Shown here piece by piece: positions 4,748 through 13,413 of a stretch of DNA of 48,894 nucleotides. Origin of the DNA: Nanobdellota archaeon (GTDB lineage Archaea; Nanobdellota; Nanobdellia; Pacearchaeales; GW2011-AR1); the NCBI GenBank assembly GCA_030647965.1, contig JAUSIT010000006.1, positions 1 to 48,894 of the forward strand, written 5' to 3'. The notes below the pieces were generated by a model. The model made no database searches and had not been told where the DNA came from. It saw only the letters and a program-made list of their open reading frames with translations. Made by a program: the position numbers and the translations under genes. The number at the start of each line of letters is the position of its first letter. Position 1 is the stretch's first letter.

Positions 4748-7423
4748 TTATGCTTTATTAAGTTTTGTATTCTTTTTTGCTCTGAATAAAGAAGATATAA
4801 AACTTATTGGAATAATTTCAATCATACCTGTTCTTTTTCCCCTTGATTTTTTTATAGCATATGTAATCTTTTCAGCAGGCCATTTATTTTTTCTCAATGA
4901 TTCCCTTATTTCATAATCACTCATTCCTCTTGCTCGAGCATTATCAATATACATTAAAAGATTAAATAAATGTCTTCTATCTTTAAACAAATTATTTTCA
5001 TAATTTATTGTATACCAAATTTGAATTATCGTATAAAGTATAATTGCAAAAATAAAAAGTAAAAGCGCATATAATTGTAATTTTTTATCTTTATAGAAAA
5101 CATAACAATCAGAAGGACAATTATCCATAGTTTCATCTGCATCACATTGTTTATTAAAATTACAAGCACTAACAGGAGTATTTATTTCCAATTTATCCAA
5201 TCCAGGAGAAATAAAAATATTTGTCTGATTATCTTCGATTGCAAATTCAATATTTTTAGTTTGCCCAGCAAATAAAGCAATGCCAACTGCATTTTCAGAA
5301 GATTTTAATGAACTATCAGAAATTTTAAAATTAATTTCATTCAAGGGCAATTCAATAATTAAATATCCATTAGCATTTGAAGTTATGCTAATAGTATAAA
5401 CATTTAAGATTATATCTTTTTGATTATCACTAGTTAAAGTTACAATTTTTTTAATATTAATAATAGAATTAGCAATATTTTTTTCTTTCCAGTTTAAAAT
5501 AGAATTTTGATATTCACTTTCTAATCCAGAATAATCATTTTTATCATTAGTAATTGCTTTTATAGAATTAATATTGATATTTTCAGGATTCATAATCAAT
5601 GGAGAATTAAACACATCTGAAACAACAACAGAAGTAGGAATGTTTAATTTTTGTAATTTAATTGCAATATTTAAATAATCCTTATCAGTTAAAGCACTTG
5701 AAATTTCATCTTCAATTGCCTTTAAACTATTTGATGAAGAATTAACATCTAAAATAATCCTTAATTCTTGCTGATACCAAGTAGGATAATTATTAATATC
5801 ATTATTTGCGCTAATTAAATCATTTTTTCTATTTTGTATTTCTGAATTAATATAATCTTTTGGAGAAATAGTATTAATTAAAAATGTTCTTGAAGAGTTT
5901 TGAGTTTTATTATCAATAACTTTTAATGTAAGAGTATAATTAGTAATATTATTGTAAACATGATTTACAGAATTAGTTGTTGTTTCTTCCTTATTTCCGT
6001 CTCCAAAATCCCAAATATATTTTGAAATTAAATAATCAGAACTAACATCTGCCCTAAATCTTGCACTAATTCCTGCAGGAGGATTTAAATTAGTTAATGA
6101 ATTTATTACAGGGGCAGGAATAATAGTTATTAATTTATTAAATAATTCTTGGCCATTTAAATAACAAGAAATATATCTATCTCCTTTTATTGAAAAAACA
6201 TTTATTTTTGCAGAAGCTAAATTTAATTTTCCAACAAATGAAGATATTTTTGCAGGAATTAAAGTCAAATCAGAAACACTTGAAGTTAACGAATCTCCTT
6301 CAGAAGTTCTATATAAAATATTAATATTTGAAATGTTTAAATTTTGATTTACCCCTGTTGCGCTTATTGGTAAAATACACCCTTCAGAACAATCCTTATT
6401 GTATTTTGACTGAATAAATGAATTTGCATCTGAAACAATAGAAGAAATTAATGTTCTATTTATAGATATTTTTTCAGAAGGAGCATATTTTGCTGTTTTT
6501 GCAAAAATAGAATAATCTCTCGTACTATTTCCAGAAGGCAATCCAAACCACCCACAATTTGATCCTGAATTTTCAGAATAAATTTGATAATTTGTTGGTT
6601 GGCTTGATTTTACACAAATAGTATAATCCCCTGCATCATAACCAGTTGTTTTATTTGCAATGCAAGAATTATTTATAGAAGGATTAAATGTGCAATATGC
6701 AACAGAAGAAGAAGTTGAATTATAATAAACAAACATCTTAAGTTCTTTATTATCTACTCCACTAATATCTGCTCCAAGCATCATTGAACCTCCAGAATGG
6801 GGAAGAGAAATATTTTCACAATATTCTCTATCACTGGAAATAACATAAGTTGTTTTGCTTACACTATTATTATCATAACACCCATAAGATACAACTCCTG
6901 AATAATCATCAGAAACTTTGTTAAATTCCCAAAAACTTTTATTATTAAAAAAAGATAATTTCAATGGAACTTCTACTTGTTTTTCAAAATCACTTAAAAC
7001 ATCAAAACTAAATCCAGTAATTTCAATATTTTTTCCATTTAAAATAAATCCAAATAATTTTATTTCATCTTTGTTCATTAAAAATGTTTTTTGTGTAAAC
7101 TCTCCACCAACAGCACTGTATCCATCAGAACAATCAGAAGGAGTGCAATTATAAACAGCATTATTTTTATTTAAAAAATCTCTAAGAGAGATATTATTCA
7201 CAAGATCAGAATTACAAGATAAAACCGAATTAAGGTTTTCTCCAGCCAAGCTTACATTAATATTTCCAGCAAGATTCCCATAAGGAGTATAACTAGTAGT
7301 CAAACTTACATTATAAACATTAAATGCAGACACGCCATTCAAGCATAAAAGTCCAAAAAGAATTGCAAGAATAAAAGTATATTTATAATAATTACTCATC
7401 GCCCTTTTTATCATCCCCTTCAT
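4748..7423 (-). CDS. large membrane-anchored surface protein with PKD domain
   Basis: An 891-residue exported protein. A hydrophobic signal segment (FILAILFGLLCLNGVSA) lies at about residues 17-33. Many Asn-Ser/Thr sites suggest glycosylation. One PKD domain is visible (YIWDFGDGNKEETT ... VNHVYNNITNYTLTLKV). Near the end comes a short Cys box (CNFNKQCDADETMDNCPSDC), then a transmembrane helix at about 783-807 and a roughly 85-residue cytoplasmic tail with MSDYEIRESLRKNKWPAEKI. This architecture is common in DPANN cell-surface proteins; the ligand is unknown. Confidence 0.75.
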   Translation of the reverse strand: MKGMIKRAMSNYYKYTFILAILFGLLCLNGVSAFNVYNVSLTTSYTPYGNLAGNINVSLAGENLNSVLSCNSDLVNNISLRDFLNKNNAVYNCTPSDCSDGYSAVGGEFTQKTFLMNKDEIKLFGFILNGKNIEITGFSFDVLSDFEKQVEVPLKLSFFNNKSFWEFNKVSDDYSGVVSYGCYDNNSVSKTTYVISSDREYCENISLPHSGGSMMLGADISGVDNKELKMFVYYNSTSSSVAYCTFNPSINNSCIANKTTGYDAGDYTICVKSSQPTNYQIYSENSGSNCGWFGLPSGNSTRDYSIFAKTAKYAPSEKISINRTLISSIVSDANSFIQSKYNKDCSEGCILPISATGVNQNLNISNINILYRTSEGDSLTSSVSDLTLIPAKISSFVGKLNLASAKINVFSIKGDRYISCYLNGQELFNKLITIIPAPVINSLTNLNPPAGISARFRADVSSDYLISKYIWDFGDGNKEETTTNSVNHVYNNITNYTLTLKVIDNKTQNSSRTFLINTISPKDYINSEIQNRKNDLISANNDINNYPTWYQQELRIILDVNSSSNSLKAIEDEISSALTDKDYLNIAIKLQKLNIPTSVVVSDVFNSPLIMNPENININSIKAITNDKNDYSGLESEYQNSILNWKEKNIANSIINIKKIVTLTSDNQKDIILNVYTISITSNANGYLIIELPLNEINFKISDSSLKSSENAVGIALFAGQTKNIEFAIEDNQTNIFISPGLDKLEINTPVSACNFNKQCDADETMDNCPSDCYVFYKDKKLQLYALLLFIFAIILYTIIQIWYTINYENNLFKDRRHLFNLLMYIDNARARGMSDYEIRESLRKNKWPAEKITYAIKKSRGKRTGMIEIIPISFISSLFRAKKNTKLNKA

Positions 7424-7471
7424 GATTATATAGAGATTTGCAGTTTTATAAATGTTATTTTATTAAATGAA

Positions 7472-8233
7472 CTAAATTTTTTTGCTAAAGATATACTGCA
7501 AATAAGCTTTAAGATACCTTTTTCTTAATTCTCTTAATAAATTTAAATCTGGCTTTCTTATTTCAACTTCAACCATTACATTCTCACCATTTTCTTTAAC
7601 ATTTAATATTTTAAATTCATTAAGATTATCTGGTGAATAATCTCCTTTTTTATATTGTATAAGTAAAAATGGCTTGTAATCCAATAATTTATAAAAACCA
7701 ATCACTTCATCTTGAGCACCAACATTTATTTTATTGTATTTTCCTTTTGAATTTTTTTCAAATTCCCTAACTAGCATTGCACCAAAACCTCTTTTCTGAA
7801 ATCTAGAATCAACTGCAATTTCACTTATTAATAAATAATCTTCTCTTGGAAAACCACATATTATCCCAATAAGCTCATTGTCTAAGAAAATCCCAATAAA
7901 AAATTCAGGGAATTTTCTAAAGTTTTCAAAAAGAAACTTATTGTCCCTCACTCTTTTTTTTAATTCATTATCTAAAAGCTTCATTGCCCGAGGAAATTCA
8001 CTTTCTTTAATTGAACGAATTTCTAAAACTGAAAGAAGTTTTAATCTCTCAAAATCTAAGAATAACAATTTTTCTTCATTTTTAAGATCATTTTTTTCTA
8101 CTCCTTTTTCAAATTTCTCTAAAATTTTTTGAAATTTTAAATCTATTTTCAGATCAATCAATCTTTTACAATCACAAATAAGAATACATCCATTATCTGT
8201 TCTCCATTTTATATGTTTATTAATTGTATGCAT
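7472..8233 (-). CDS. GNAT acetyltransferase with PqqD/RRE-like N-terminal domain
   Basis: A 253-residue protein. Residues about 70-205 are a GNAT fold with the acetyl-CoA loop FQKRGFGAML and the FYKLLDYKP motif near the end. The first roughly 65 residues (IKWRTDNGCILICD ... LKFQKILEKFEKG) resemble the PqqD-like winged helix that binds leader peptides in RiPP enzymes (recognition element, RRE); this likeness is by eye. The start is one base after the radical SAM stop, so the two are one operon, led by the 48-aa peptide gene. Likely job: acetylating a peptide or its modified product. It could instead be an unrelated N-acetyltransferase. Confidence 0.75.
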   Translation of the reverse strand: MHTINKHIKWRTDNGCILICDCKRLIDLKIDLKFQKILEKFEKGVEKNDLKNEEKLLFLDFERLKLLSVLEIRSIKESEFPRAMKLLDNELKKRVRDNKFLFENFRKFPEFFIGIFLDNELIGIICGFPREDYLLISEIAVDSRFQKRGFGAMLVREFEKNSKGKYNKINVGAQDEVIGFYKLLDYKPFLLIQYKKGDYSPDNLNEFKILNVKENGENVMVEVEIRKPDLNLLRELRKRYLKAYLQYIFSKKI

Positions 8234-8234
8234 T

Positions 8235-9338
8235 TTATACCTCTAAATTAAACTTATTTTTTAATGTTGTCCTATAAAAATCATATTTTTTAAGCCCCAT
8301 TTTTTGACCATTTTTTATGCAAAATGGAGTTGGAGAAGAGCCATCTCCAAAATACCTAAAACTCTGAGCAATGCATTTATTGCATTTTGGCAGCATTTTA
8401 CACCCACCACAGCCAATATTCATATAACTTCTAAATTTATTAAAAGAATCTCCACCCCATATCTCTAGCAAAGATTTTTCTTTTATATTATCAAACTTAA
8501 TTTCTTCTTTAGGAATACAAACTCTGCATAAAGGACAAGGGGAAATAGTTCCATCAGAATTAATTTCGCAAAAATTTAATGCACCTGCACATTCATAAGA
8601 AGATAATCCTTGATTACCTGTTTGAACAGGCAAATCAATTAATCTTATATTAATTTTATTTTTTTCTCCTTCTTTTTTAAGATTTTCCCAAAAATCAAGA
8701 TTATAAAATTCATAGAATTCGACAGTATTTTTATTATCCATTCCTCGACCAACTAAAACAATAGGAGAAACAAACCAACTTATAGGATTTATTTTTTTTA
8801 TTAATTCAATAAGATTATCTATTTTATTTATATTTTTTTTATGTAAAACACTTGCAATAGTTAATGGAAGACTATGTTCTTTAAAATAAAAAATATTATT
8901 TAAAACAATATCAAATAATTTAGGATTATATTCATAATTAGAATCAAGTCTTAAAAACCCATAACTTTCTTTATCTGACCCATCTAAACTTATTTTAATT
9001 CCAATTAAATATTCTTTATGATTCACTATAAAATCCCTCATGTCTTTAGAAAAAATGCCATTTGTAGTTAAAATAAAATGAATTCCTTTTTTTGACAAGT
9101 ATTCTATAAACTCTTTAAAATGGGGGCTTTGAGTTGGCTCTCCGCCAGAAATATTAACAAAAAAAACTTTAGAGTTATATAATTCATCGATAACTCTTTT
9201 CCATTCATTTAAATTTAGTTCATTTTCAATAGGAATACTATAACTGCCAAAACAATGTTTGCATCTCAAATTACATTTGCTTGTTAAATTAATATAACAA
9301 GAATAAGGAGAAAAATATTTAAGTTGATTTATGTCCAT
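8235..9338 (-). CDS. radical SAM/SPASM peptide-modifying enzyme
   Basis: A 367-residue radical SAM protein. The cluster motif is CNLRCKHC (Cys22, 26, 29), followed by NISGGEPTQSP for SAM binding and ISLDGSD. The C-terminal SPASM-type Cys set is CAGALNFC, then CPLCRVC and CGGCKMLPKCNKC with a last Cys near SPTPFC; these normally hold auxiliary Fe-S clusters. SPASM enzymes mostly modify ribosomal peptides (thioether, C-C or Tyr chemistry) or carry out related steps. GGTGAT lies before the ATG. It starts 24 nt after a 48-aa peptide gene and is coupled to the RRE-GNAT gene, a typical RiPP arrangement. Confidence 0.88.
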   Translation of the reverse strand: MDINQLKYFSPYSCYINLTSKCNLRCKHCFGSYSIPIENELNLNEWKRVIDELYNSKVFFVNISGGEPTQSPHFKEFIEYLSKKGIHFILTTNGIFSKDMRDFIVNHKEYLIGIKISLDGSDKESYGFLRLDSNYEYNPKLFDIVLNNIFYFKEHSLPLTIASVLHKKNINKIDNLIELIKKINPISWFVSPIVLVGRGMDNKNTVEFYEFYNLDFWENLKKEGEKNKINIRLIDLPVQTGNQGLSSYECAGALNFCEINSDGTISPCPLCRVCIPKEEIKFDNIKEKSLLEIWGGDSFNKFRSYMNIGCGGCKMLPKCNKCIAQSFRYFGDGSSPTPFCIKNGQKMGLKKYDFYRTTLKNKFNLEV

Positions 9339-9362
9339 ATTAAAAAATCACCACAATCTTCC

Positions 9363-9509
9363 CTAATATTGGTTCTGACTGCAAGAAATAACTCTATTGT
9401 ATTCTACAACATAGAGTCTTTCAGTTTTTGCTGTTCCCTCATACTTAGCAGGTATTCTTTGTGTTAAACCTGCAGTTCCAGGACCAATAAAACTCTCTAG
9501 TTTTTCCAT
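9363..9509 (-). CDS. candidate RiPP precursor peptide A (48 aa)
   Basis: An ATG-to-TAG frame of 49 codons. The peptide begins MEKLESFIGP, has YEG at 23-25 and ends in a core-like stretch rich in aromatic and polar residues (RLYVVEYNRV, then a lone Cys43, ending in Tyr48). The ATG lies 18 nt after a perfect TATA block (9528-9541), so the message is leaderless. It sits directly upstream of the radical SAM/SPASM and RRE-GNAT genes, as precursor genes usually do. The same promoter and first five residues occur in the peptide gene at 11680. That it is the substrate is inference from context. Confidence 0.72.
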   Translation of the reverse strand: MEKLESFIGPGTAGLTQRIPAKYEGTAKTERLYVVEYNRVISCSQNQY

Positions 9510-9527
9510 AATTTATTAATATTATCT

Positions 9528-9541
9528 AAATATATAAAGAT
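9528..9541 (-). promoter_or_regulatory. TATA block of precursor gene A
   Basis: ATCTTTATATATTT on the minus strand, exactly 18 bases before the ATG at 9509. The identical 14-mer with identical spacing stands before peptide gene B at 11680. The distance fits a leaderless archaeal transcript. Confidence 0.75.
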
Positions 9542-9611: not shown

Positions 9612-10940
9612 ATGGTAGTGACACACAAAAGGAAAAGTGGATTAAGGAAAGCACTAATTATCGGAGCAACTGCCGCAGCTTTGTCCCTATTCCCTGCAAA
9701 AACAACCTATGGCCAAACTCTAGAAAGCCAAAGGCATGATGTAAGAAGTTTAGATAATATAGAATATCTACAAGAAGGAGTTGCAAAAATAGCACAACCA
9801 GCACTTTCTCACGAAGATTCCTTACATATATTCAACCCATTTATACAACCAAATGATTCAACATTAGTTGCCTATGGAAGCGGAGACGCCAACAAAGACA
9901 ATAAAATAGATCTAGAAGATTACAGCACAATACAATTAATACTTGGAAATAAAACACATGAAGAATTTGGCGAATTTCATGGATGGGATTACAATACAAT
10001 TAATTCAATGCTCGGAAGCAGAGAGTTCGATAGAGCAGATGTAGATGGGGATGGAGTAATAACTCAAACAGACGCAGATTTAGTATTGAAATACATTAAC
10101 AAAGAAATACAATACCTCCCAGGCCACTGGAACAAGCTGAAAACAAGACAAGAAAGAGAAGACTGGTTAGATAAATGTTTGAAGATTGATTGGACAAGTA
10201 ATGTTAAATATAATGATCCTAACTGGATTTGCGTAGATTCTGAATTTCAAACAATTACTAATACTACTGGCCTTAGAACATTAGATAATGTTCCTTCAAA
10301 ATATAATTTAACAGATAATGGTAGATTTAATCTCCCAATTTATGGGGTAGCAATAGATGGACCTAACAATTTTGGGCATACTCTAATTGGAGTAGTAATT
10401 GGAGACAATCCATTAAAATGGGAAAGTTGGAAATTAAAAGAATCAGAAGATGACAATGATGTTAAAATCGGAGAATGGAATATGCCAACAAATAGTAAAG
10501 TGATTATTGCGGGTATTTATAAAAAGGGGCCGGGTTTTGACTTAACAGAATTTAATATAGACGCCCAAGGCACTCCATCTCTAACTTATACAAACCCAAA
10601 CCTAGTCCTAACACGACCAGAACCTGTTCTTGTTCAAGAAGATGAAAATAAACCAGTGCCTGTACCTTGGGTAAATCAAAACTATCCAAATCCATTTAGT
10701 AGCTCAACAACAATAGAATACTCTGTTCCACAACCTCAAAGAGTTTCTCTTGAAGTTTTTAATTCACAAGGGCAGAAATTAGAAAGCTTAGTAGATAATG
10801 AAATGCAAGATTCAGGAAAACATTCTATAAGATTAAATGCAGGTAAATATGCTTCTGGATTATATTTCTATAAGCTCAAAGCAGAAGATAAAGATAGCAA
10901 GCCATACACACAAACCAAAAAGATGATGATTGTGAAGTAA
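9612..10940 (+). CDS. secreted protein with dockerin-like repeats and T9SS-type sorting tail
   Basis: A 442-residue exported protein. Signal peptide: residues 1-35 (basic KRKSGLRK, hydrophobic core, cleavage near TTYGQ). Two calcium-loop repeats typical of dockerin type I follow (GDANKDNKIDLEDY and ADVDGDGVITQTDADLVLKY). The middle holds a lone Cys (WICVDSEF) and His (FGHTLIGVVIG) that might form a transglutaminase/papain-like pair; unproven. The last roughly 80 residues begin NYPNPFSSSTTIEYSVP and end in TKKMMIVK, a clear match to the Bacteroidota type IX secretion/sorting domain. That domain is out of place in an archaeon and suggests gene transfer. Confidence 0.82.
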   Translation: MVVTHKRKSGLRKALIIGATAAALSLFPAKTTYGQTLESQRHDVRSLDNIEYLQEGVAKIAQPALSHEDSLHIFNPFIQPNDSTLVAYGSGDANKDNKIDLEDYSTIQLILGNKTHEEFGEFHGWDYNTINSMLGSREFDRADVDGDGVITQTDADLVLKYINKEIQYLPGHWNKLKTRQEREDWLDKCLKIDWTSNVKYNDPNWICVDSEFQTITNTTGLRTLDNVPSKYNLTDNGRFNLPIYGVAIDGPNNFGHTLIGVVIGDNPLKWESWKLKESEDDNDVKIGEWNMPTNSKVIIAGIYKKGPGFDLTEFNIDAQGTPSLTYTNPNLVLTRPEPVLVQEDENKPVPVPWVNQNYPNPFSSSTTIEYSVPQPQRVSLEVFNSQGQKLESLVDNEMQDSGKHSIRLNAGKYASGLYFYKLKAEDKDSKPYTQTKKMMIVK

Positions 10941-10956: not shown

Positions 10957-11628
10957 ATGACAAAAGTAAATTTTAAGTTTGATAAAGAAAAAGATCTTTA
11001 TAATATTTGGGAAACTTGTAATTCTAAATCTAATTGGTATAATTTTAAACAAAATGTAACCTCAAATGTTTTAAAAATATGTGGAGGAAAAGAATTTGAA
11101 GATTGTAAAAATGAACTTGAAAATATTGCAGAAAAAATTTACAAAAGTTCTTTAATAAATATATTTGTTGAAAGTGTTAATAAATCTTGGGAAGGAATTA
11201 ATAATGAATATTTTAACCGGCTTGAGAAAATAATGAAAAAGCCAATTTGCTCTAAAGACTTCACAGCATATTTAACAACCGCGGGTAGATGCCCGTATGA
11301 TCCTGAAGAAAAAACATTCTTTTTTTCATTTTTTAATTCTTTACCTAATGCAATGAACACAACAGGACATGAAATTATGCACTTACAATTTCATGAATAC
11401 TATTGGCAAGATACAGAAAAACAATTAGGAAAAGAAAAAACAGCAGACTTAAAAGAAGCTTTAACAGTTTTGCTAAACTTAGAATTCAATGATTTATGGT
11501 TTGCAAAAGATATTGGTTATGAACCCCATAAAGAATTAAGAAAATTCATAGCAAACGAATGGAAAAAAGAAAAAGACTTTGATGTTCTTATAGAAAAATG
11601 TGTTGATTATTTGAAAGAAAAACATTAA
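10957..11628 (+). CDS. HExxH metallopeptidase-like protein
   Basis: A 223-residue protein with a zinc-site motif GHEIMHLQFHEYYW (HExxH at residues 138-142) after a beta hairpin-like FFFSFFNSLPNAMNTT. It has the same overall plan as the 252-aa protein at 25799-26557, including KSW.. in the helix upstream and the acidic C-terminal helix, so the two are paralogs. No signal peptide, so it acts in the cytoplasm. It starts 16 nt after the sorting-tail gene and precedes peptide gene B. It could be the leader-removing protease of the peptide locus; this is inference. Confidence 0.7.
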   Translation: MTKVNFKFDKEKDLYNIWETCNSKSNWYNFKQNVTSNVLKICGGKEFEDCKNELENIAEKIYKSSLINIFVESVNKSWEGINNEYFNRLEKIMKKPICSKDFTAYLTTAGRCPYDPEEKTFFFSFFNSLPNAMNTTGHEIMHLQFHEYYWQDTEKQLGKEKTADLKEALTVLLNLEFNDLWFAKDIGYEPHKELRKFIANEWKKEKDFDVLIEKCVDYLKEKH

Positions 11629-11679: not shown

Positions 11680-11820
11680 ATGGAAAAACTTGAAAAAATA
11701 TCAGAACTTTCCTTGCTTAATGCAGAGAAATCTGATAGAAAAGAAATTCCTTATGAGGGATTGACTTTAATTGAAGAAAGACCATATAATGGTCCAACAA
11801 GTATAAAATATTGGATGTAA
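11680..11820 (+). CDS. candidate RiPP precursor peptide B (46 aa)
   Basis: An ATG-to-TAA frame of 47 codons. The peptide starts MEKLEKISEL, has PYEG at 24-27 and ERPYNGP at 33-39, and ends in KYWM. Like peptide A it opens with MEKLE, has a mid YEG and ends with aromatic residues. It has its own leaderless promoter. The TIKI-like gene begins 11 nt after its stop (ATG at 11832) and an E1-like adenylating enzyme follows. In microcin C7 and pantocin-like systems such an enzyme acts on a short peptide's C-terminal residues; here that is a hypothesis. Confidence 0.7.
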   Translation: MEKLEKISELSLLNAEKSDRKEIPYEGLTLIEERPYNGPTSIKYWM

Positions 11821-11831
11821 ATTCATTTAAA

Positions 11832-12422
11832 ATGGTTCTTTATCCTTTGATTTTTCTAGGGGATACTCATGGATTTATAAACGACTTCATTAAACAAAAA
11901 GAAGTTATAGAAGAAATAATGCCTGAATTTATACTAAGTGAAAATCTTCAGAATATCTCTTTAAATTCTAAAGAAGAATATGCTCAAATTTTGAAATCTA
12001 AAAAGATATCTGATAACATTTCCTTTGAAGAATTAGAACCTCTTATAAAATTGTGCGATAATAAAAATATCAAGATTATTGGGATGGATTTACCTAATTT
12101 TGGTTTTGATGAAGATTTACAATCAAAAATCAAAAATCAAAAAAATCTAACTAAAGAAGATCAAATTAAACTAAAAGATATTTTAAAAGTAAGAGAAGAA
12201 ACACATATTTCCAAAATTAAAGAATATCTAAATAAAACAAACAAGCCATTATTAATAATAGTGGGATCATGGCATTTAAGAAAAAACTCTCATTTAAGAA
12301 AAAATTTTTCAAATTATAAAGTAATATATCCTTCTAATTTAAAAGGTAAATTATTAACAAAACCACCTAAAAATATTAAAGATTTTAAATATTCTGAAGA
12401 AACAAATGAAATTAAAAATTAA
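11832..12422 (+). CDS. TIKI/TraB/ChaN-superfamily protein
   Basis: From ATG 11832 it has 196 residues; a TTG at 11811 would overlap peptide gene B. The motifs of the TIKI superfamily are in order: LGDTHG (GxxH) at about 10-14, PEFILSEN with the conserved Glu, an Arg in VREETHI, and a second GxxH in GSWHLR. Members include TraB/PrgY, which blunts peptide pheromone activity, ChaN and the TIKI metalloproteases. No membrane segment is seen, unlike PrgY. The end overlaps the E1-like gene by 17 nt. A role in cutting or limiting peptide B fits the context. Confidence 0.7.
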   Translation: MVLYPLIFLGDTHGFINDFIKQKEVIEEIMPEFILSENLQNISLNSKEEYAQILKSKKISDNISFEELEPLIKLCDNKNIKIIGMDLPNFGFDEDLQSKIKNQKNLTKEDQIKLKDILKVREETHISKIKEYLNKTNKPLLIIVGSWHLRKNSHLRKNFSNYKVIYPSNLKGKLLTKPPKNIKDFKYSEETNEIKN

Positions 12423-13413
12423 TGAATCGGTTTATATCCTTAAAGAATCTGAAAATATTTATCAAGTCATTTTTACAGCAACTAGAAAAATAAAAAGATT
12501 CAATGTAGATTCTCTTGTAAAAGAATTAATAGATTTTTTGAATGAAGAAAGAGAAGAAAATAAAATTTTAGAAAAATTCTCAGAAAAATACAATAATAAT
12601 AAAATATCTTCATGCATTAATTCTCTTAAATCTGAAGGAGTAATTAAAGAATATTCATCTTTTTTAGAGAATGAACGTTTTTCCAAGCAGATGTTATTTA
12701 TTGATGAATTAACAAATTCTAGAGAAGAAACTTTAGAATTACAAAGAAAAATAGAAAACTCAAATTTTTCTGTTTTTGGTATAGGGGGGATAGGCACTTG
12801 GATTGTAAATGGGCTATATCAAATAGGAGTAAAAAATATTAAAATAGTAGATCCTGATATTGTGGATAAAACAAATCTTAATAGGCAATTATTTTTTAAT
12901 TCTTCAGATATAGGAAAATATAAAGTAGATATAATTCAAACAAAATTTCCAGATATTAATATCATCCCATTTAAAAGAAAAATTTCTCAGAATAATAACT
13001 TAGAAGATATAATTAAAAACGCAAATTTTATTGTAAATTGTGCAGACTCTCCATCCATTGTTGAAACTACCCAGATAATTGATAAATATGCTTCAAAATA
13101 TAATATTCCCTATTGTGTCGCTGGGGGATATAATATGCACCTAGGAATGATTGGGCCAATAATCGTCCCAGGAAAAACCGCAACATTTCAAGATTTTATT
13201 GATTATCAAAAAAGAATGGATCCTTTAAAAGATTTTGAAAAAATAAAAGATATTGAACAAACAGGTAGTCTGGGACCAATAGCAGGGGCAGTTGCAAATA
13301 TACAAGTAATGGAAATTTTTAAATATCTAACTGGAAAAGGAAGTTGTAATTTAAATAAATTTGCAGAAATAGATTTTTTAAATTTCAATATTGAATGGAG
13401 AAATTTTAAATAA
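12406..13413 (+). CDS. E1/ThiF/MccB-like adenylating enzyme with N-terminal recognition-like domain
   Basis: A 335-residue protein. Residues about 92-330 form the E1-like fold: ERFSKQMLFID, the ATP loop GIGGIG at 125-130, VDPDIVDKTNLNRQLFF with the conserved Asp/Asn/Arg, NCADSP, and GPIAGAVANIQVMEIFKYL. The first roughly 85 residues are a small winged-helix-like domain as in MccB and RiPP-linked ThiF proteins. No CxxC pair is present, so the usual structural zinc seems lost. It would adenylate a carboxylate, probably the C-terminus of peptide B. MoeB/ThiF housekeeping use is less likely because no ThiS/MoaD gene is near. Confidence 0.82.
   Translation: MKLKINESVYILKESENIYQVIFTATRKIKRFNVDSLVKELIDFLNEEREENKILEKFSEKYNNNKISSCINSLKSEGVIKEYSSFLENERFSKQMLFIDELTNSREETLELQRKIENSNFSVFGIGGIGTWIVNGLYQIGVKNIKIVDPDIVDKTNLNRQLFFNSSDIGKYKVDIIQTKFPDINIIPFKRKISQNNNLEDIIKNANFIVNCADSPSIVETTQIIDKYASKYNIPYCVAGGYNMHLGMIGPIIVPGKTATFQDFIDYQKRMDPLKDFEKIKDIEQTGSLGPIAGAVANIQVMEIFKYLTGKGSCNLNKFAEIDFLNFNIEWRNFK

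Follow-up and report, generated by a model that had tools for sequence, protein, structure and literature searches.

A Putative Three-Gene RiPP Pathway with an RRE-Acetyltransferase Fusion in an Archaeon of Reduced Genome

Introduction

Does a short open reading frame (ORF), placed just before a radical SAM (rSAM) gene in a reduced archaeal genome, encode the peptide upon which that enzyme acts? The question is raised by one locus of the window, which is the whole stretch of 48,894 nucleotides analysed here and represents one contig of a 982-kb Nanobdellota genome that is 85% complete. The initial annotation had described on the minus strand a leaderless small gene, a SPASM-type rSAM enzyme and a GNAT protein starting with a PqqD-type leader-binding domain, in an order typical of RiPP operons. 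Among archaeal RiPPs, only lanthipeptides have verified products, and the DPANN clusters in a survey of archaeal RiPPs are software predictions only (PMC12144867). We consider it highly probable that the three genes form a minimal RiPP pathway, in which the SPASM enzyme and the RRE-GNAT fusion act on a 48-aa precursor. That this precursor receives a RiPP-type modification of some kind is very probable.

The Three-Gene Unit and Its Distribution

The genes follow one another on the minus strand as peptide, SPASM enzyme and RRE-GNAT (7472-9509; Table 1), with the SPASM ATG 24 nt after the stop of the peptide gene and a single base (8234) between the SPASM and GNAT genes, which confirms the coordinates of the set and the one-base gap as first described. 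The Pfam matches at the locus are Radical_SAM (6e-19), SPASM (6e-10) and Acetyltransf_1 (1e-9); neither GNAT residues 1-67 nor the small ORF has a Pfam match.

Table 1. Features of the three-gene module, with positions in the window
Feature	Position	Strand	Basis
Precursor peptide gene, 48 aa	9363-9509	-	homologous ORF at 8 loci; leave-one-out profiles
Radical SAM/SPASM enzyme, 367 aa	8235-9338	-	PF04055 + PF13186; orthologues 58-68% identical
RRE-GNAT fusion protein, 253 aa	7472-8233	-	Pfam, alignment, model, fold search
TATA box TTTATATA of module	9531-9538	-	same spacing at 8/8 homologous loci
Leader motif I8-I19 (IGPGTAGLTQRI), proposed RRE-binding site	9453-9488	-	alignment
Core tail C43-S-Q-N-Q-Y48, proposed modification site	9366-9383	-	alignment
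rSAM cluster motif C22-x3-C26-x2-C29	9252-9275	-	invariant
SPASM domain, eight invariant Cys (250, 257, 268, 310, 313, 319, 322, 340)	8319-8591	-	alignment + Pfam
N-terminal RRE domain (predicted), residues 1-67	8033-8233	-	AlphaFold pLDDT 92.3; Foldseek top 25
GNAT domain, residues ~67-196	7646-8035	-	Pfam + fold; closest Ard1/NAT N-alpha-acetyltransferases
GNAT C-terminal extension, residues ~197-253	7475-7645	-	strands, helix, last strand; ends QYIFxK

Besides the window's own genome, SPASM orthologues (64-68% identical) were found in six of the 275 related genomes searched. All six belong to the window's own family, in which the contigs with orthologous loci bear the label Candidatus Pacearchaeota or Nanoarchaeota; accordingly, the source organism is placed with these DPANN archaea. 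One more contig, labelled Aenigmatarchaeota and carrying a SPASM protein 58% identical, came from a scan of named genomes; the SPASM protein as a single-sequence query gave no match among the named-genome contigs, and the alignment query succeeded. The window, the six related genomes and this contig are the eight loci counted throughout. The module was not found outside the family among 371 genomes sampled evenly over the phylum, and viral contigs yielded no relative.

A small ORF upstream of the SPASM gene in related genomes had been named as a test of the initial proposal, and a homologue is present at each of the eight loci, being 48-59 codons long and starting the unit 20-27 nt 5' of the SPASM gene. 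The order of peptide, SPASM and RRE-GNAT, regarded from the outset as that of RiPP operons, is likewise kept at all eight. The flanks of the orthologous loci differ beyond the three genes, and therefore the unit is these three. Divergence along the unit is correlated (SPASM-GNAT rho 0.67; SPASM-peptide rho 0.66), as shared ancestry alone could also give. One relative, G017, carries a decayed copy of all three genes (L045, G017:C12, ~6500-7650), in which stops break up the peptide, SPASM residues 1-306 are lost, what is left of peptide and SPASM enzyme merges into one stretch, and a stop interrupts the GNAT. In another, G086, the SPASM ORF stops at residue ~240, with peptide and GNAT intact. 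Given this wreck and this truncated enzyme, the module is accessory and patchy.

The TTTATATA box lies ~25 nt 5' of the peptide ATG. A TATA-like box at this distance fits an archaeal transcript that begins at the peptide start, and its common spacing at 8/8 loci supports, at the level of sequence, the leaderless character ascribed to the small gene from the beginning.

A dockerin protein with a type IX secretion (T9SS) tail adjoins the module (9612-10940, plus strand). Among 10 genomes, its homologues occur only in G055, at two contig ends (L227, L235), one of them beside an RRE-GNAT; the other genomes with the module lack it, and for this reason it was rejected as a core component. The same genome, G055, has a ~0.9-kb GNAT segment in one copy that is missing from the other homologous copy, which looks like an insertion or deletion.

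The Precursor Peptide

The peptides of the eight loci share an N-terminal motif, [IV][GS][PA]GTxGxxQ[RK]I, vary in the middle, and end exactly with C-x-[QH]-N-Q-[YF]-stop. Within the leader motif, G11, T12, G14, Q17 and I19 are invariant; in the tail, C43, N46 and Q47 are invariant, and the last residue is Tyr or Phe in 8/8. Asn38 is also conserved. Using leave-one-out HMMs, each peptide was recovered as the sole match in its locus, with E-values from 1e-13 to 1e-21. Where two peptides have the same residue, 52% of the codon pairs use different codons, and selection therefore acts at the protein level. Judged by the homologues at 8/8 loci, the leave-one-out detection and the codon divergence, the small ORF is a real gene and chance is excluded. 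Weak peptide-profile matches in three other genomes (G124, G083, G037) were not accepted as real, since their E-values exceed 1e-3. What the loci present is a conserved precursor next to a modifying enzyme, one of the features by which a RiPP cluster is recognised.

Four residues near the peptide end had been proposed as targets, and the alignment divides them. Cys43 is conserved and Tyr48 is kept as Tyr or Phe, whereas Tyr33 and Tyr37 lack conservation in the peptide alignment and were rejected on that ground.

The small ORF could be read as a regulatory arrest or attenuation leader that stalls the ribosome, with the enzymes acting on another substrate. It opens the transcript, with a gap of 20-27 nt to the SPASM gene, and the residues at its end rank among the best conserved; the conserved residues of known arrest peptides lie just before the stop. 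However, the ORF has a conserved N-terminal motif as well, a feature not required for arrest, and one of the operon's products carries an RRE, whose known ligands are precursor peptides. Additionally, the RRE-GNAT of G083 pairs with another precursor-like ORF, one with a repeated core. We hold the regulatory reading to be very unlikely.

The SPASM Radical SAM Enzyme

The CX3CX2C motif of the rSAM cluster is C22/26/29 and is invariant. With these cysteines at residues 22-29, there is no room for an N-terminal RRE in the SPASM enzyme. The auxiliary cysteines read C310-x2-C313-x5-C319-x2-C322-x17-C340, plus C250, C257 and C268, so that the protein has the composition of a SPASM enzyme, that is CX3CX2C together with Cx2-4Cx5Cx2-3Cx14-18C and remote cysteines. 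The enzyme anSME has eight SPASM cysteines and the sactipeptide maturase AlbA has seven (PMC5682303); the eight auxiliary-cluster cysteines found here follow the anSME pattern, unlike that of AlbA.

Among NCBIfam models, the best relatives are peptide- or tetrapyrrole-modifying maturases, all of them far under their cut-offs. The enzyme reaches 110 bits against a cut-off of 265 for the MftC equivalog (TIGR03962) and 101 bits against 381 for PqqE. Its best solved-structure match is SkfB, and its best NCBIfam match, at 113 bits, is the heme b synthase AhbD, which is not a RiPP enzyme. The AhbD match would suit genes that are ordinary neighbours, with the SPASM enzyme making a heme-like small-molecule cofactor and the GNAT acetylating something unrelated; RRE-GNAT genes without this SPASM gene, in G055 and G083, would suit it too. 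Against this stand the conserved peptide, the gene order kept at eight loci amid otherwise different surroundings, the joint decay of the three genes and the RRE fold, and we regard such a chance neighbourhood as improbable in the extreme. A shared role in modifying the peptide is the reading that we retain.

The RRE and GNAT Domains

The first residues of the GNAT protein had been likened to a PqqD-type leader-binding domain, with a profile comparison against PqqD/RRE families suggested as the check. By sequence profile the answer was negative: a Pfam search found no PqqD match and a PDB profile search found no RRE. The structural fold search was positive and decided the matter. From nine orthologous sequences, AlphaFold gave a model of the 81 N-terminal residues with a mean pLDDT of 92.3, having strands at 8-13, 16-21 and 26-31, then helices at 32-43, ~47-49 (short) and 52-63, and an extra short strand at 2-4. 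In a Foldseek search of the PDB, the best 25 matches are all RRE-bearing RiPP proteins, which bears out the likeness to a PqqD-type domain. The best is TbiB1 with its leader peptide (E 3e-3, probability 1.00), and the others include SuiB, TigE (TM 0.67), ThcOx, a lasso B1 protein, the PbtF RRE, LynD-type and other heterocyclases, CteB, MccB and McbB. Even the best of these RRE E-values is modest, as expected because the domain has only 81 residues. The strict definition of an RRE asks for three strands, then three helices, and treats a sequence-profile match as lying outside it; RREs detected only by fold are on record (PMC12710340). By the model, the N-terminal ~67 residues of the GNAT are an RRE under that definition, with one extra strand in front.

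The full-length RRE-GNAT model has a pLDDT of 92.9 and a pTM of 0.87. The second domain is a GNAT both by Pfam (PF00583, 39 bits against a cut-off of 20.7) and by fold (Foldseek Ard1, 5e-9), and the nearest solved structures, archaeal Ard1, NatC, Naa50 and RimI, are protein N-alpha-acetyltransferases. The first glycine of the CoA motif is replaced by Asp or Lys in two orthologues, which leaves it uncertain that acetyl transfer occurs everywhere.

GNAT relatives that lack an RRE occur in other genomes, which suggests that an RRE was joined onto a pre-existing GNAT. In G055, an RRE-GNAT lies at a contig end, where no SPASM gene was found. In G083 (L228, 5078-7470), a diverged RRE-GNAT is followed by a 54-aa ORF that carries a repeated RCKGWCHD core and then by a 469-aa SPASM enzyme; we propose it as another candidate RiPP locus and an independent link of RRE-GNAT to RiPP-type genes.

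Comparison with Known Systems

In mycofactocin biosynthesis, the precursor MftA is conserved in its C-terminal IDGxCGVY and variable elsewhere, a chaperone takes part, and the rSAM enzyme decarboxylates the C-terminal Tyr (PMC5264612). Like MftA/MftB/MftC, the module combines a short precursor that has a conserved C-terminal aromatic residue, a separate RRE and a SPASM rSAM enzyme. Unlike it, the module is archaeal, has a conserved leader motif, fuses its RRE to a GNAT, has no MftD/E/F beside it, and carries the tail C-x-[QH]-N-Q-[YF] rather than CGVY; the peptide does not end in IDGxCGVY. Like PqqA/PqqD/PqqE, the module provides its SPASM enzyme with an RRE in trans, and it differs from PQQ in lacking the E-x3-Y core and other pqq genes nearby, as well as in the GNAT fusion. 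The module would work like PqqD-PqqE or MftB-MftC; with SPASM scores under the MftC and PqqE cut-offs and different core motifs, it belongs to neither family.

One form that the modification might take is a mycofactocin-like redox cofactor, in which the aromatic residue is decarboxylated and the end is excised as an electron carrier. The logic of the trio matches MftA-MftB-MftC (PMC5264612), MftC is among the best NCBIfam matches, the last residue is always Tyr or Phe, and the eight invariant SPASM cysteines are as in anSME (PMC5682303). Yet the tail is CxxNQY instead of CGVY and Phe is tolerated, the MftC cut-off of 265 bits is missed, and the module has no conserved neighbour that is an MftD/E/F homologue, a peptidase or a dehydrogenase. 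This form is possible and is put forward tentatively.

The ranthipeptide and sactipeptide enzymes CteB, SkfB, AlbA and PapB are similar in pairing a SPASM rSAM enzyme with a Cys-bearing peptide. Several of these maturases carry their own RRE, whereas that of the module is in trans; unlike those systems, the module has one core Cys and eight SPASM Cys. In a second form, a thioether would join Cys43 to Asn46 or Gln47. The structural match to SkfB speaks for it, as does the single invariant Cys, which is followed after three residues by an invariant Asn and after four by an invariant Gln, but there is only one Cys, repeats are absent, all eight SPASM cysteines are present against seven in AlbA (PMC5682303), and this form would not explain why the aromatic end residue and the exact C-terminus are kept. 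We rank this form, too, as a tentative one. If the peptide is modified, C-terminal decarboxylation and a Cys thioether appear about equally plausible, neither being favoured to be correct, and another chemistry of the tail is unlikely.

The predicted action of a GNAT on the amine of a ribosomal peptide resembles the N-terminal acetylation of goadsporin and the action of the MccE GNAT domain on microcin C, and the texts found on these acetyltransferases do not describe an RRE fusion. Archaeal Ard1/NAT N-alpha-acetyltransferases have the nearest GNAT fold, which in the module is preceded by an RRE and followed by an extra domain. In open full texts (the main text of papers free of subscription), neither an RRE-GNAT fusion nor such a precursor from DPANN or Nanoarchaeota was found, in agreement with the original remark that no described combination of a SPASM enzyme with an RRE-acetyltransferase was known from a reduced archaeon; a survey of RREs counts 1,158 Pfam domains fused to them, which could include GNAT. 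What the loci offer is a conserved archaeal precursor family whose leader and core can be delimited, together with its SPASM enzyme and the RRE-acetyltransferase fusion, and this suggests that the archaeal group has a family of modified peptides not described before. If true, archaea of reduced genome devote part of their coding capacity to making such peptides.

Proposed Pathway

We infer the working of the pathway, namely presentation by the RRE, chemistry at the tail and acetylation, from the anatomy of the genes. One promoter upstream of the peptide gene would serve the three-gene set. The RRE of the GNAT would bind the leader motif GTxGxxQ[RK]I and offer the peptide in trans to the SPASM enzyme, a part played for PqqE by PqqD and for MftC by MftB. 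Next, the SPASM enzyme would oxidatively alter the C-terminal hexapeptide C-x-[QH]-N-Q-[YF], most likely either by stripping the aromatic residue of its terminal carboxylate, whether or not a cross-link is formed as well, in the manner of MftC, or by linking Cys43 through a thioether to Asn46 or Gln47. The GNAT would acetylate the same peptide, probably at the alpha-amine, because no Lys is conserved in the tail and the GNAT domain is closest in fold to N-alpha-acetyltransferases.

The genes that flank the orthologous loci include no conserved dedicated exporter or peptidase, and the product may therefore remain inside the cell or be matured by housekeeping enzymes. A more speculative extension, which we consider rather doubtful, is a new class of archaeal RiPP: the RRE-acetyltransferase would both present and acetylate the peptide, yielding a product capped at both ends that reduced-genome DPANN archaea would employ as cofactor or signal; in this same doubtful extension, the caps would be an N-alpha-acetyl group and an oxidised or decarboxylated C-terminal aromatic residue.

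Neighbouring Peptide Modules

A second RiPP-like module lies 2.2 kb from the three-gene module (11680-13413, plus strand). It encodes a 46-aa peptide ending GPTSIKYWM, a ChaN/TraB-like protein (11811-12422; weak Pfam match only) and a ThiF/E1 enzyme (12406-13413), to which MccB and PaaA are the best matches among solved structures. The peptide tail T[SN]I[KM]YWM is kept in relatives before the same genes, and the ThiF-type enzyme probably activates the peptide's C-terminus. An archaeal case of such an MccB-like module was not found elsewhere. The two modules lie on different contigs in G148, and the second is therefore separate. Its presence strengthens the view that these archaea carry several peptide-modifying systems.

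Between the two modules is a HEIMH-motif protein (10957-11628, plus strand) that has no Pfam family. It was rejected as a core leader peptidase, since in relatives it occurs alone or with other rSAM genes. Its relatives (L200, L202, L203, L204, L210, L043) often lie beside rSAM genes and Cys/Asp-rich small ORFs, a set that represents a third peptide-modifying system; one of these HEIMH-associated small ORFs, at 2686-2865 of L200, ends in SDCDCIDCGDCDCDDCPI.
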